Shown here: one piece after another, positions 1,257 to 40,444 of the stretch
Numbering within the stretch: the stretch's first letter is position 1
Layout of the letters: every line of letters starts with the position of its first letter
Assembly (NCBI RefSeq): GCF_024496245.1
Contig: NZ_CP101740.1
Coordinates: forward strand, 2,541,501 to 2,605,500
Direction: 5' to 3'
DNA length: 64,000 nucleotides
Source: Sphingomonas qomolangmaensis
Lineage (GTDB): Bacteria; Pseudomonadota; Alphaproteobacteria; Sphingomonadales; Sphingomonadaceae
Made by a program: the position numbers and the translations under genes
The notes under the pieces: generated by a model
Seen by the model: the letters and a program-made list of their open reading frames with translations, nothing else
Database searches by the model: none
What the model was told of the DNA's origin: nothing

Positions 1257-1272
1257 TGTTCCACGTGGAACA
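1257..1272. promoter_or_regulatory. parS: parS centromere site (ParB-binding palindrome)
   Basis: The sequence TGTTCCACGTGGAACA is a perfect 16-bp palindrome that matches the widely conserved chromosomal parS consensus (tGTTNCACGTGNAACa). It directly abuts the mnmE stop codon at 1273 and lies 38 bp upstream of the mnmG start. Chromosomal parS sites are nucleation points for ParB and lie close to the replication origin. The candidate origin here is about 6 kb away, which fits. No second copy was noticed in the window. Confidence 0.9.
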
Positions 1273-2908: not shown

Positions 2909-3607
2909 ATGCGCGAGATTTCGATACCCGCCCTCGATAACAATGGCAGCTTCAACGCCCATGTCGCCACGCCCGAAGGTGCCGCGCGTGCGGCGATCGT
3001 CGTCATCCAGGAAATCTTCGGGGTGAACCGCGGGATCCGCCAGAAATGCGACAAGCTCGCCGCCGCAGGCTATCTGGCAATCGCACCCGACCTGTTCTGG
3101 CGGATCGAGCCCGGGATCGAACTCGACCCCGATGTCGATGCCGAGATGCAGCAGGCGCTGGGGTTGATGGGCAAGTTCGACCAAGACCAGGGCGTCGCCG
3201 ATATCGAAGCAACGATCACCGCGGCGCGCAGCCATCTCGCCGAGGGCGGCAAGGTGGGGGTGGTCGGATATTGCCTGGGGGGCCGCCTGGCCTTCATGAC
3301 CGCAGCGCGGACCGATGCCGATGCGAGCGTCGGCTATTATGCGGTGGGGATTGACGGGTTGCTGGGCGAGGCCGACGCGATCGCCAAGCCGGTGCTGCTG
3401 CATGTCCCCAAGGACGATCATTTCGTGGGGCCGGAAACGCAGGCGAAGATGCACGAGGGGTTGGATGATCACCCGATGGTGACGCTGCATGATTATGCCG
3501 GCGAGGATCACGGGTTCGCGACCGAGGTGGGGAATCGGCGGTCGCCCGAGGCGGCGGAGCTGGCCGATGCGCGGACGATGGCGTTTTTCGGGGAATATCT
3601 GGGGTGA
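2909..3607 (+). CDS. dienelactone hydrolase family protein
   Basis: A 232-residue alpha/beta hydrolase. The nucleophile elbow is VGYCLGGR, with Cys as nucleophile as in carboxymethylenebutenolidase. Before it come VVIQEIFGVN and IAPDLFWR, and the catalytic Asp and His appear in the VPKDDHF and GEDHGF stretches. Members open dienelactones in aromatic degradation, but many housekeeping paralogues have unknown ester substrates, and no aromatic-catabolism genes are nearby, so the substrate is not assigned. A clear purine-rich ribosome site (CAGGAG) precedes the ATG. It is the only plus-strand gene left of the predicted origin. Confidence 0.92.
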   Translation: MREISIPALDNNGSFNAHVATPEGAARAAIVVIQEIFGVNRGIRQKCDKLAAAGYLAIAPDLFWRIEPGIELDPDVDAEMQQALGLMGKFDQDQGVADIEATITAARSHLAEGGKVGVVGYCLGGRLAFMTAARTDADASVGYYAVGIDGLLGEADAIAKPVLLHVPKDDHFVGPETQAKMHEGLDDHPMVTLHDYAGEDHGFATEVGNRRSPEAAELADARTMAFFGEYLG

Positions 3608-5328: not shown

Positions 5329-5709
5329 TCAGCGGCCCTTGGGCGCCGCGCCGCCGGTCTTGGCCCGCGCCTGGACCGCATTGCCCACCGATGCCAGCCG
5401 CTTGGCATTGTCCTGCAGCTGGCTGCCGCAGCGGGGGGTATGTTGCTTCACGAAGGCGTTCAGCCCGGCCTCGTCCGACGGGAGCGTCGCGAGGATCGCC
5501 TTTTGCAGGTCGAAGCCCGGCTCGCGCCCGTCGATCCGCCCGACGTAATACATCGTACCAGCGAGCACGCCGGGGCGCTGCGCCTCGGGCACGGTGTTGA
5601 CGATCGCGCCGAGCACCGCGACGCAGGTGACGTCGGCGGCCTGGCTGTCCTGTGCGGCGGCGGCGGTTGCGGGAGCGGCGAGTGCGAGCGCAAGAAGGGG
5701 AAGCAGCAT
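5329..5709 (-). CDS. hypothetical exported protein
   Basis: A 126-residue protein with a clear signal peptide (MLLPLLALALAAPATAAAA, cleavage likely near 19-20). The mature part holds two cysteines (DVTCVAV and TPRCGSQL) that could form a periplasmic disulphide, and ends in a basic tail (AKTGGAAPKGR). No family was recognised. It lies 12 bp after hemJ on the same strand, so it may be the last gene of the hemE-hemJ transcript. Function unknown. Confidence 0.75.
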   Translation of the reverse strand: MLLPLLALALAAPATAAAAQDSQAADVTCVAVLGAIVNTVPEAQRPGVLAGTMYYVGRIDGREPGFDLQKAILATLPSDEAGLNAFVKQHTPRCGSQLQDNAKRLASVGNAVQARAKTGGAAPKGR

Positions 5710-5721
5710 CGATATCGCCTT

Positions 5722-6177
5722 TTAGAAGGGTTTGACGATCGCCAGGATGACGATCAGCGTCACGGCGATCGCGGGGACTTCGTTGATCAACCGCAATTGC
5801 CGCGCCGCGAGCGTGGGGCGTCCCGCGGCGAGCTTGCGGCCATAGCCGACCGCCCAGCCGTGATAGCCCGACAGCAGCACTACCAGCAGCAATTTGGCGT
5901 GCAACCAGCCAAGCCCGGTTTCGCCCTCGAACAGCCCCAGATTGGCGGCGAGCAGAAGCCCGAGCACCCAGACGACGATCAGCGAGGGGGTGAGGATCAT
6001 CTTGCGAAGCTTCGCCTCGCGCTCGATCCAGCGTTCGGGTTCGCCCGCGATCGACAAGCCTTCCTGGTGATGGACCAGATAGCGCGGCAGGATGAACAGC
6101 CCCGCCATCCAGAAAATCACGAAGATCAGATGCGCAGTCTTCATCCAGGGATAGGCCTGGCCGAGGAAGCCGGTCAT
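5722..6177 (-). CDS. hemJ: protoporphyrinogen IX oxidase HemJ
   Basis: Integral membrane oxidase of haem synthesis, replacing HemG/HemY in most alphaproteobacteria. The 151 residues contain four hydrophobic segments. The conserved His is in KTAHLIFVIFWMAGLF and the conserved Lys in WLHAKLLLV. The ATG overlaps the hemE stop in ATGA form (6174-6177), so the two consecutive-pathway genes are translationally coupled. Confidence 0.95.
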   Translation of the reverse strand: MTGFLGQAYPWMKTAHLIFVIFWMAGLFILPRYLVHHQEGLSIAGEPERWIEREAKLRKMILTPSLIVVWVLGLLLAANLGLFEGETGLGWLHAKLLLVVLLSGYHGWAVGYGRKLAAGRPTLAARQLRLINEVPAIAVTLIVILAIVKPF

Positions 6178-7250
6178 CGCGGCGCGGCGCCGCGGACGCG
6201 CGCTAGCAGTTGCTCGACATGCGCGATCGGGGTGTCGGGCAGGATGCCGTGGCCCAGATTGAACACATGCGGGCGATCGGCGAAGGCGGCAAGGATATGG
6301 TCGATCGCGGCGTCGAGCGCGTCACCGCCGGCGATCAGCGCGAGCGGGTCGAGATTGCCCTGCACCGGCATGTCGGCGGGCAGTTCGCGGTTTGCCCAGA
6401 CCGGGTCGACGGTCTCGTCGATCCCCATCGCATCGACCCCGGTTTCGCGCGCATAGGCGCCGAGCTTGCCCCCTGCCCCCTTGGGAAAGCCGATGATGAT
6501 GAGTTCGGGGCAGCGCGACCGCAGCCCGGCAACGATCGCGGCGTTGGGGGCGATTACCCAGCGTTCGAACTGCGCCGGCGAGAGGCTACCTGCCCAGCTG
6601 TCGAACAGCTGGACCGCGGCGACCCCGGCTTCATGCTGCTTGGCGAGATACTCGATCGTCACCGCGATGATCCGGTCGACCAGCAGCTGCATTGCCGCAG
6701 GATCGCCGTACGCCAGCCTTCTGGCCTTGTGCTGGTCCTTCGAGCCTTGGCCTGCGATCATGTACGTCGCGACCGTCCACGGGCTTCCAGCGAACCCCAG
6801 GAAGGTAGTTTCGGGCGGGAGCATCGTGGCGACCTGGCGCACCGTCTCGTACACCGGCGCGAGCACGTCTTCGCTCGGCGGCACCAGCGCCTCGATCGCG
6901 TCGCGATCGTCGGCGGTGGGGGCGAGGCGTGGCCCTTCCCCCGTTTCGAACCACAGGTCCTGCCCGAGCGCCATCGGCACCGTCAGGATATCCGAGAAGA
7001 GGATCGCGCCGTCGAAGCCGAAGCGACGGATCGGCTGGATCGTGATCTCGGCGGCCGAGGGCGGGTCCATCGCCAACGCGAGAAAGCCCCCCTTTTCGGC
7101 CCGGAGCGCACGATATTCGGGAAGATAGCGCCCCGCCTGCCGCATCAGCCAGACGGGAGCGACGCGCTGCTTCTCGCCGAGCAAGGTCGCGAGCAGGGGT
7201 TTCTTGATCGAGCCGGGGGTCTGCACGGGGGTCAGTCTGCCTTCCTTCAT
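6174..7250 (-). CDS. hemE: uroporphyrinogen decarboxylase
   Basis: Cytosolic enzyme that decarboxylates uroporphyrinogen III to coproporphyrinogen III. The signature WLMRQAGRYLPEYR is near residue 35 and the second, GFAGSPWTVATYMIAG, is near 145; the C-terminal FNLGHGILPDTP is also typical. At 358 residues it has normal length. The start is taken as ATG at 7250; an in-frame GTG eight codons later (7226) is an alternative. It is the first gene left of the probable origin and reads away from it, as in Caulobacter, where hemE borders the origin. Confidence 0.97.
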   Translation of the reverse strand: MKEGRLTPVQTPGSIKKPLLATLLGEKQRVAPVWLMRQAGRYLPEYRALRAEKGGFLALAMDPPSAAEITIQPIRRFGFDGAILFSDILTVPMALGQDLWFETGEGPRLAPTADDRDAIEALVPPSEDVLAPVYETVRQVATMLPPETTFLGFAGSPWTVATYMIAGQGSKDQHKARRLAYGDPAAMQLLVDRIIAVTIEYLAKQHEAGVAAVQLFDSWAGSLSPAQFERWVIAPNAAIVAGLRSRCPELIIIGFPKGAGGKLGAYARETGVDAMGIDETVDPVWANRELPADMPVQGNLDPLALIAGGDALDAAIDHILAAFADRPHVFNLGHGILPDTPIAHVEQLLARVRGAAPR

Positions 7251-7389
7251 AGTTAAGAAGAATCTTGAAAAAGGATGTTGATGGTAGATGGCGCGTGGAT
7301 GTCGGGGCTTAAGGCGTCGTGCGGTTTTTGCCAACAGCTTGACCCCGAGGCGCGCGCCGAGCGCCGATGAGTCGGGACGCGCTTCCACG

Positions 7390-7398
7390 TTTTCCACA
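7390..7398 (+). promoter_or_regulatory. DnaA box candidate 1 (TTTTCCACA)
   Basis: Fits the relaxed DnaA-box consensus TTWTNCACA exactly and differs by one base from the strong box TTATCCACA. It sits in the middle of the hemE/DUF299-kinase gap. Confidence 0.6.
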
Positions 7399-7512
7399 GG
7401 GTGGGGACAAGATCGGGCCTCTGCGCAGGGATTGTGGACGGCATGGGGATCGAACCCCCGGTTTTGCACGGCTTGGCCACGGGGCCGGGTTACGCTAGCC
7501 ACTGTCACCATG

Positions 7513-7521
7513 TTGTCCACA
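7513..7521 (+). promoter_or_regulatory. DnaA box candidate 2 (TTGTCCACA)
   Basis: One base away from TTATCCACA. It forms the right end of a 14-bp inverted repeat arm whose partner (7433-7446) carries the same TGTGGAC core. It lies 17 bp upstream of the DUF299 kinase start. Confidence 0.55.
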
Positions 7522-7538
7522 GATCGGCCCCGTCGGTG

Positions 7539-8360
7539 ATGAAGCTGCACCTCCACCTGCTGTCGGATTCGACCGGGGAGACGCTGGAGAATATCGCGAA
7601 GGCGGCGCTGGCGCAGTTCGACGACGTCGAGACGCTGCGCCATTTCTGGCCGATGGTGCGAAGCGAAGCGCATCTCGAGCGGATCCTGCAAGAGATCGCG
7701 CAGAATCCCGGGCTCGTCATCTTCACGCTGGTGAACAAGGAAGTGCGCCGGACGCTCGAGGCGCGCTGCCGGGCGATGGGGCTGCCCGCGATCGCGCCGC
7801 TCGACGGGGTGAGCCACGCGCTGTCGGGGTTGCTGGGGCAGGAGGCCAAGGCGCGGCCGGGGCGGCAGCATATCCTCGATGCAGCCTATTTCGCGCGCGT
7901 CGATGCAATCCAGTTCACGATCGCGCATGACGACGGGATCGCCGCCGAGGATTGGGAAGAGGCCGATATCCTGCTCGCCGGCGTTTCGCGATCATCGAAG
8001 ACCCCGACCTCGATCTATCTTGCCAATCGCGGCTACAAGACCGCCAACATCCCGATCGTGATCGAAAGCCCGCCGCCGCGCGAGTTGTTCAGCCTGAAGA
8101 ACCCGCTGATCGTCGGGCTGACCACCAGCGCCGACCGACTGATCCAGGTGCGGCGCAACCGCTTGCTGTCGCTCAACCAGGCGCCCGAGACCGCCTATGT
8201 CGACCAGGAGGCGGTGGTGCGCGAAGTCGCGTTCGCGCGCCGGATGTTCGCCGATAATGGCTGGCCGGTGATCGACGTCACGCGGCGCTCGATCGAGGAA
8301 ACCGCCGCGGCGATCATCACCCTGTGCAACGAACGCGCCGCCGCGAAGCGCGACGCATGA
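7539..8360 (+). CDS. DUF299 kinase/pyrophosphorylase (PEP synthase or PPDK regulatory protein)
   Basis: Bifunctional serine/threonine kinase and phosphorylase family that switches pyruvate phosphate dikinase or PEP synthase off and on. The protein begins MKLHLHLLSDSTGETLE, a family hallmark, and carries the P-loop-like LLAGVSRSSKTPTSIYLANRG near the middle. Taken from ATG 7539 it is 273 residues, close to normal. A GTG immediately upstream is also in frame. It is the first gene right of the predicted origin, equivalent to the gene beside the Caulobacter origin. Its stop overlaps the maf start (ATGA). Which dikinase it controls cannot be seen here. Confidence 0.92.
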   Translation: MKLHLHLLSDSTGETLENIAKAALAQFDDVETLRHFWPMVRSEAHLERILQEIAQNPGLVIFTLVNKEVRRTLEARCRAMGLPAIAPLDGVSHALSGLLGQEAKARPGRQHILDAAYFARVDAIQFTIAHDDGIAAEDWEEADILLAGVSRSSKTPTSIYLANRGYKTANIPIVIESPPPRELFSLKNPLIVGLTTSADRLIQVRRNRLLSLNQAPETAYVDQEAVVREVAFARRMFADNGWPVIDVTRRSIEETAAAIITLCNERAAAKRDA

Positions 8361-40144: not shown

Positions 40145-40444
40145 ATGGATTCGGGTGGCACGTTGACGAGGGCCGACCTGGCCGATGCCCTGCATCGCGA
40201 AGTGGGTCTTTCGCGTACCGATTCATCGAAAATGGTCGAGGATATCCTTGATCATATGTGCGATGCGCTGACCAAGGGCGAGAACGTCAAGATCTCGGGC
40301 TTCGGTAGCTTCATCCTGCGCGACAAGGGGGAACGCGTCGGGCGCAATCCCAAGACCGGGGTAGAAGTGCCGATCGCGCCGCGCCGCGTACTCACCTTCC
40401 GTGCCAGCCAGATGATGCGCGAGCGGATCGTGGCGGGAAGCTGA
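40145..40444 (+). CDS. ihfA: integration host factor subunit alpha
   Basis: DNA-bending nucleoid protein, partner of IhfB. The 99-residue product has [20 protein letters not shown], the DNA-contacting arm [20 protein letters not shown] and the [11 protein letters not shown] end that distinguishes IHF-alpha. A 95-bp gap after fabH probably holds its own promoter. It is followed 11 bp later by the MerR gene. Confidence 0.96.

Follow-up and report, generated by a model that had tools for sequence, protein, structure and literature searches.

The replication origin of Sphingopyxis granuli has been placed near hemE, and the same location is predicted for most Sphingomonadaceae in DoriC (PMC4741004, 2016). 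In its account of the origin, that paper points to conserved putative DnaA boxes, together with a putative unwinding element, within the intergenic region, and requests that the S. alaskensis entry be relocated to the hemE site (PMC4741004). The experimentally identified origin of Caulobacter crescentus, Cori, lies in the gap between hemE and a COG1806 gene and, as described in the relevant sections of two papers, contains an AT-rich stretch, DnaA boxes that are moderate or very weak, a reported IHF site and five CtrA sites of the form TTAA-N7-TTAA (PMC1914354, PMC4468827). The origin of the Wolbachia/Rickettsia group, predicted in silico, is also bounded by hemE and contains DnaA and IHF sites; in the corresponding section, CtrA sites are given for most Wolbachia strains and the gene opposite hemE belongs to COG1253 (PMC1914354).

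The window analyzed here is a stretch of 64,000 bp (genome positions 2541501-2605500) of Sphingomonas qomolangmaensis, whose genome is represented by one contig of 3,429,145 bases (99.75% complete) that was assumed to be a closed circle. Within this window, the 288 bp gap between hemE and a DUF299 gene (window 7251-7538, genome 2548751-2549038) is, with a probability of roughly 0.9, oriC, the start of bidirectional chromosome replication in this sphingomonad. The basis for this assignment is the sequence anatomy of the gap, its conservation, the strand switches and the placement of parS and dif. The gap and its boundary genes are as follows.

7251..7538, no strand: predicted oriC, intergenic gap between hemE and DUF299 (profile of the gaps of 61 relatives; best octamer switch interval)
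6174..7250, minus strand: hemE, left boundary gene, with its start at 7250 (TIGR01464, 374 bits)
7539..8360, plus strand: DUF299/COG1806 gene (kinase/pyrophosphorylase), right boundary gene (PF03618, NF003742)

The gap shares with Cori, as presented in PMC1914354 and PMC4468827, the hemE and COG1806 boundaries, an AT-rich stretch and DnaA boxes, and where Cori has a reported IHF site it has an IHF-like one; in contrast to Cori, it contains two boxes only one letter away from TTATCCACA and no CtrA site of the exact form. The likeness to the Wolbachia/Rickettsia group extends to the hemE boundary and to the DnaA and IHF sites, the latter IHF-like here, whereas the gene opposite hemE is different (PMC1914354). 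With Sphingopyxis granuli TFA and other Sphingomonadaceae, the hemE site, the gene organization, the putative boxes and the unwinding element are shared (PMC4741004; DoriC), whereas the genome and the sequence are others and the evidence on the IHF-like element, parS, dif and the octamers comes from the present analysis. Because the consulted part of PMC4741004 already predicts a hemE oriC in most Sphingomonadaceae, the place and the general anatomy of this origin are known, and the present genome is a further member.

The gene neighborhood agrees with what the sequence-only reading had described, namely a gap between divergent hemE and DUF299 genes, with genes mostly directed outward on both sides and a maf-aroE-coaE-dnaQ run on the right. 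This run follows the DUF299 gene with all four genes on the plus strand; the maf and aroE proteins score above the Pfam domain cut-off, yet below most of the NCBIfam equivalog cut-offs. To the left, hemE, a UPF0093 gene, an ORF at 5329-5709, rho and mnmE are all on the minus strand and point outward, and the single gene directed towards the gap on this side is located at 2909-3607 on the plus strand.

The arrangement is conserved across Sphingomonadaceae. The DUF299 gene is present in 115 of the 119 family genomes searched, the present one included; the four genomes without a match (G020, G021, G073 and G104) are all 2.1-2.3 Mb in size, and the origin boundary there may differ. Among the 70 of these 115 loci that were read, again including the present one, 69 contain divergent hemE and DUF299 genes, the exception being a locus (L075) in which hemE is not within the available sequence. 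Gap lengths, taken from aligned gene starts, range from 247 to 934 and fall between 250 and 330 in 62 of the 69 loci. A profile built from the gaps of 61 relatives, with the own genus left out, produced a single match in the 1,084,000 sampled bases (31.6% of the genome), at window 7272-7523 (E 4.6e-23). Two loci of genomes titled Bacillus sp. 2B10 (L140) and Microvirga sp. SRT01 (L144) encode DUF299 proteins 84 and 83% identical to that of the window, so these names are probably wrong.

The elements found within the gap are listed below, in the order of their positions.

7251..7290, no strand: AT-rich end adjoining hemE, 68% AT, a possible unwinding region
7260..7264, no strand: GANTC, CcrM-type methylation site (sequence reading)
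7294..7302, minus strand: weak DnaA-like box ACATCCACG with 3 mismatches, within a block alignable family-wide
7326..7342, plus strand: conserved element TTTTGCCAACAGCTTGA with a putative IHF-like core YAAN4TTGA
7369..7373, no strand: GANTC (sequence reading)
7390..7398, plus strand: DnaA box TTTTCCACA, exact, one mismatch to the consensus
7402..7410, minus strand: weak DnaA-like box TTGTCCCCA, containing the hexamer TCCCCA (sequence reading)
7433..7441, minus strand: weak DnaA-like box CCGTCCACA with 3 mismatches (sequence reading)
7444..7449, minus strand: hexamer TCCCCA, which we take to be W-box-like (sequence reading)
7513..7521, plus strand: DnaA box TTGTCCACA, exact, one mismatch to the consensus

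The two better boxes, at 7390-7398 and 7513-7521, had been noticed from the letters alone; both are found exactly there, one letter away from TTATCCACA, and their closeness goes beyond chance. The genome contains 15 TTNTCCACA sites, and the gap is the sole place with two such boxes less than 8 kb apart, the gap pair being separated by 123 bp and the next closest pair by 8.5 kb; for 15 sites placed at random, the chance that two fall within 123 bp of each other is P 0.0076. In the family, at least one TTNTCCACA is present in 59 of the 69 gaps and at least two in 27, and at least two TCCACA hexamers are found in 61. The AT-rich end also holds, with 68% AT in 7251-7290 vs 39% across the gap (GC 0.61), a level reached by 0.027% of the 40-mers in the window; however, the 50 bp on the hemE side are AT-richer than the 50 bp on the DUF299 side in only 36 of the 69 gaps, so this end is no general family mark. 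The GANTC sites of the sequence-only reading are likewise present, but their count carries no weight: with 1.43 sites per kb in the genome sample, 0.4 are expected in 288 bp, so that two sites are by themselves unremarkable. At least two GANTC are found in 68 of the 69 family gaps.

The element RACANNTTGAC, which resembles an IHF site read backwards and is likely to be an IHF site as predicted from sequence, occurs in 35 of the 69 gaps, usually inside TTGCCAACAGCTTGACTC, and is absent from the other 34; it is found in 24 of the 29 closest loci vs 11 of the 40 others. In the window's gap, the core YAAN4TTGA of the IHF consensus is present and the longer pattern, extended by the two letters that follow, is unmatched; the core occurs 63 times in a 1.02 Mb sample, which corresponds to about 0.02 expected in the gap. 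Exact CtrA sites (TTAA-N7-TTAA) are found neither in this gap, which contains single TTAA at 7253 and 7309, nor in any of the 69 family gaps, and CtrA control of the origin through sites of this form was therefore rejected.

According to section 13 of PMC8287927, a BUS consists of a DnaA box, a spacer of 0-16 bp and at least three NAN DnaA-trios. A scan that allowed up to 2 mismatches in the box, with a spacer of 0-16 bp and at least three NAN trios, yielded no BUS in the window and 4 among the 69 gaps (shuffle mean 1.3, maximum 6), so the published form was rejected for the window. With 3 mismatches, there is one in the window and 13 of the 69 gaps contain one, vs a shuffle mean of 7.8 and a maximum of 17. 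Over the initial 60 bp of the 69 gaps, TAGTAG occurs 13 times on the plus strand (shuffle mean 1.3, maximum 5) and GTTG 65 times (shuffle 30, maximum 44), whereas TAG alone is not enriched (81 vs 72, maximum 94); this enrichment is a lead only, because the shuffles preserved nothing beyond single letters and the gaps are related to one another. The stretch GGGGATCGAACCCC at 7445-7458 resembles a tRNA T-arm on the minus strand and is identical in the genus-mate. A tRNA or another RNA in the gap was rejected, given that ARAGORN detects none there and the four Rfam matches are all below the gathering scores.

The gap of the genus-mate is of equal length and differs by 13 substitutions, which leave both good boxes, the IHF-like element and GANTC untouched; one, at 7408, lies within the weak box 7402-7410. 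In another locus (L083), a hairpin with perfect arms of 13 bp (AAAAAGCGACTCG), rich in GACTC/GAGTC, is seen by eye between a conserved CCAACAG element and the DnaA boxes.

Strand-biased octamers were counted in a sample of 1,084,000 bases (31.6% of the genome), with training arms centred on the candidate gap and sources between 2481500 and 2645500 left out. First among them, at 76:2, is GGGCAGGG, presumably a form of KOPS GGGNAGGG, the FtsK-orienting sequence. In the left-out region, the best switch of six biased octamers is the 0.9 kb interval 2548433-2549335, which includes the gap. The switch score is the number of agreeing minus disagreeing sites among 97, with overlapping octamers counted apart; a score of 45 is reached by three further intervals between 2547972 and 2561812, vs 47 for the best, so the resolution is about 10 kb. 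The site that delimits the switch on the left is the following.

6933..6940 (genome 2548433), minus strand: last reverse KOPS-like octamer left of the switch (octamer count)

The next GGGNAGGG after the switch is forward, at window 20313 (genome 2561813), and within 20 kb of the gap there are 1 forward and 12 reverse GGGNAGGG on the left and 2 and 0 on the right. In 10 relatives, the 20 kb on the hemE side contain 10 forward and 63 reverse copies and those on the DUF299 side 19 and 22; the bias of the relatives is thus clear for the left arm and not for the right arm. Among the sampled stretches, most of which are 65-69% GC, three (L043, genome 2992000-3011999; L024; L025) are 48, 59 and 62% GC and are probable acquired islands.

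The opposite octamer switch of the genome is located at 904452-907175, and a dif-like sequence, CGAACTGATAATATATATTATGTTAAA, is found inside this interval at 906173; its 20-base core, at up to 3 mismatches, has no second match in the genome. The arms from the gap to this site are about 1.64 and 1.79 Mb. In the genus-mate (G086), for which the sample is thinner, all 7 stretches from 1 to 600 kb show a forward bias of GGGNAGGG, and 10 of 11 stretches from 620 kb to its gap at 2208.7 kb a reverse bias, one stretch being without a site; right of the gap, the counts are 3:1, 1:1, 1:0 and 1:0. The opposite switch there falls between 600 and 620 kb, and the stretches sampled on either side of these 20 kb yielded no dif-like site.

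The palindrome TGTTTCACGTGAAACA, which we take to be parS, has matches with up to 2 mismatches at two places genome-wide, 2540321 and 2542757, to the left of the gap at distances of 8.4 and 6.0 kb. The copy at 2540321 falls left of the window; the other is inside it.

1257..1272 (genome 2542757), no strand: parS-like site TGTTCCACGTGGAACA, up to 2 mismatches

All 10 single-contig relatives in which 20 kb on each side were examined have parS-like sites on the hemE side only, 4.7-12.3 kb out. These findings bear on the view that the gap is no origin and simply a shared regulatory region with DnaA-controlled promoters of two divergent genes. Such genes do require promoters, but this view leaves the strand switch, the parS placement and the position of dif unaccounted for, and appears extremely improbable.

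Origins adjacent to dnaA are common among bacteria. Here, dnaA is at 390 kb, 1.27 Mb from the gap, and in 15 genomes, the present one included, the distance between dnaA and the gap varies from 326 to 1996 kb. An origin near dnaA, with the hemE gap reduced to just two promoters, would fit the general bacterial pattern, but there is no KOPS switch at that place: all 12 stretches sampled from 1 to 875 kb have a forward bias, with 7 forward and 0 reverse copies at 380-400 kb. Moreover, no TTNTCCACA is closer to dnaA than 30.7 kb and no parS-like site is present there. On octamer bias, parS and TTNTCCACA positions, an origin at dnaA was thus rejected as very improbable. A cluster of three boxes (up to 2 mismatches) within 300 bp at 1.88 Mb was rejected as well, given that the surrounding sampled stretches are all reverse-biased, without a switch. 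The sequence-only reading had placed the origin at the gap, away from dnaA, and is supported in this by the KOPS-like octamer switch, the dif-like site at the opposite switch, the parS-like sites nearby and the gap sequence conserved in the family. It had also described the group as one in which origins are often assigned by dnaA position alone; records that start at dnaA are indeed common, 6 of 19 single-contig relatives having dnaA within 1 kb of the record start, but a hemE origin was already predicted in the part of PMC4741004 that concerns the family.

One test proposed in that reading, a GC-skew minimum at the gap, went against it. Skew, like the octamers, was read over 31.6% of the genome. 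It has a positive sign to the left as well as to the right of the gap, and it rises from about -0.01 to about +0.08 in a step near 2.5015-2.5055 Mb, which is 43-47 kb left of the gap, though nowhere near dnaA. This step is also seen in third codon positions and intergenic bases (custom gene prediction), which left of the gap carry the sign of the right arm, and the genus-mate shows a step at about the matching place, near 2163700 (L248). In 9 of 9 relatives of other genera, by contrast, skew is negative across the 20 kb on the hemE side. There is no support for an inversion behind the offset, because the genus-mate is collinear over 67 kb left of the gap (pieces mostly 92.6-95.6% identical, one 77%) and hemE, rho, mnmE and parS hold their position.

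These observations would fit a start that, in this genus, has moved 43-47 kb left to the skew step at about 2.50 Mb, with the hemE gap as a relic or one of two start zones. A working or second start would then be located at about 2.50 Mb, with parS, the KOPS-like octamers and the old gap marking the ancestral place of an origin in mid-move. We consider this very unlikely, given that from 2.5015 Mb to the gap GGGNAGGG occurs in 17 reverse and 3 forward copies, the two parS-like sites lie close to the gap and the interval between 2481424 and 2548889 is free of TTNTCCACA. The genus-mate gap, moreover, keeps the good boxes, the IHF-like element and GANTC, a comparison that, with 13 substitutions, has little power. 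Skew itself is noisy over short stretches: among 80 named loci, the hemE-side sequence of about 2.7 kb shows negative skew in 49 and positive skew in 31, and 8 of these 80 loci have a short left flank and a misplaced cut. It is also patchy elsewhere in the genome, for example negative at 2.82 Mb. GC skew alone is insufficient to predict ori in several alphaproteobacteria, as stated in the pertinent part of PMC1914354. On the strength of the GGGNAGGG orientation, the parS sites and the lack of TTNTCCACA in that interval, the gap is kept as the origin despite the skew offset. In a comparison of fossil decay with other intergenic regions, most of the regions listed look like missed genes.

With the hemE gap as oriC, initiation may proceed as follows. 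DnaA would bind the good boxes at 7390 and 7513 and spread to the weaker boxes between and beside them, and a bending protein such as IHF would probably bind the conserved CAACAGCTTGA element. The duplex would then melt, most likely at the AT-rich hemE end, where the helicase would be loaded. The left fork would pass through hemE, rho, mnmE and parS and the right fork through DUF299, maf, aroE, coaE and dnaQ, and the two would meet near the dif-like site at 906 kb. Methylation control by CcrM is also conceivable. Candidate regulator genes include ihfA at window 40160-40435 and a GcrA gene in the genome, and two PF01555 methyltransferase genes in the genome are candidates for CcrM.

The literature searched contains no experimental origin mapping in Sphingomonas and no report of a displaced skew in the genus. 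For this genome, the same origin is indicated by octamer orientation, parS and dif, whereas the GC-skew step misses it by 43-47 kb and dnaA lies 1.27 Mb away. The genome record begins at neither oriC nor dnaA, and the gap gives it a well supported origin. This may matter for the rotation of genome records and for growth-rate estimates based on coverage, which would be wrong if the origin were set at dnaA.
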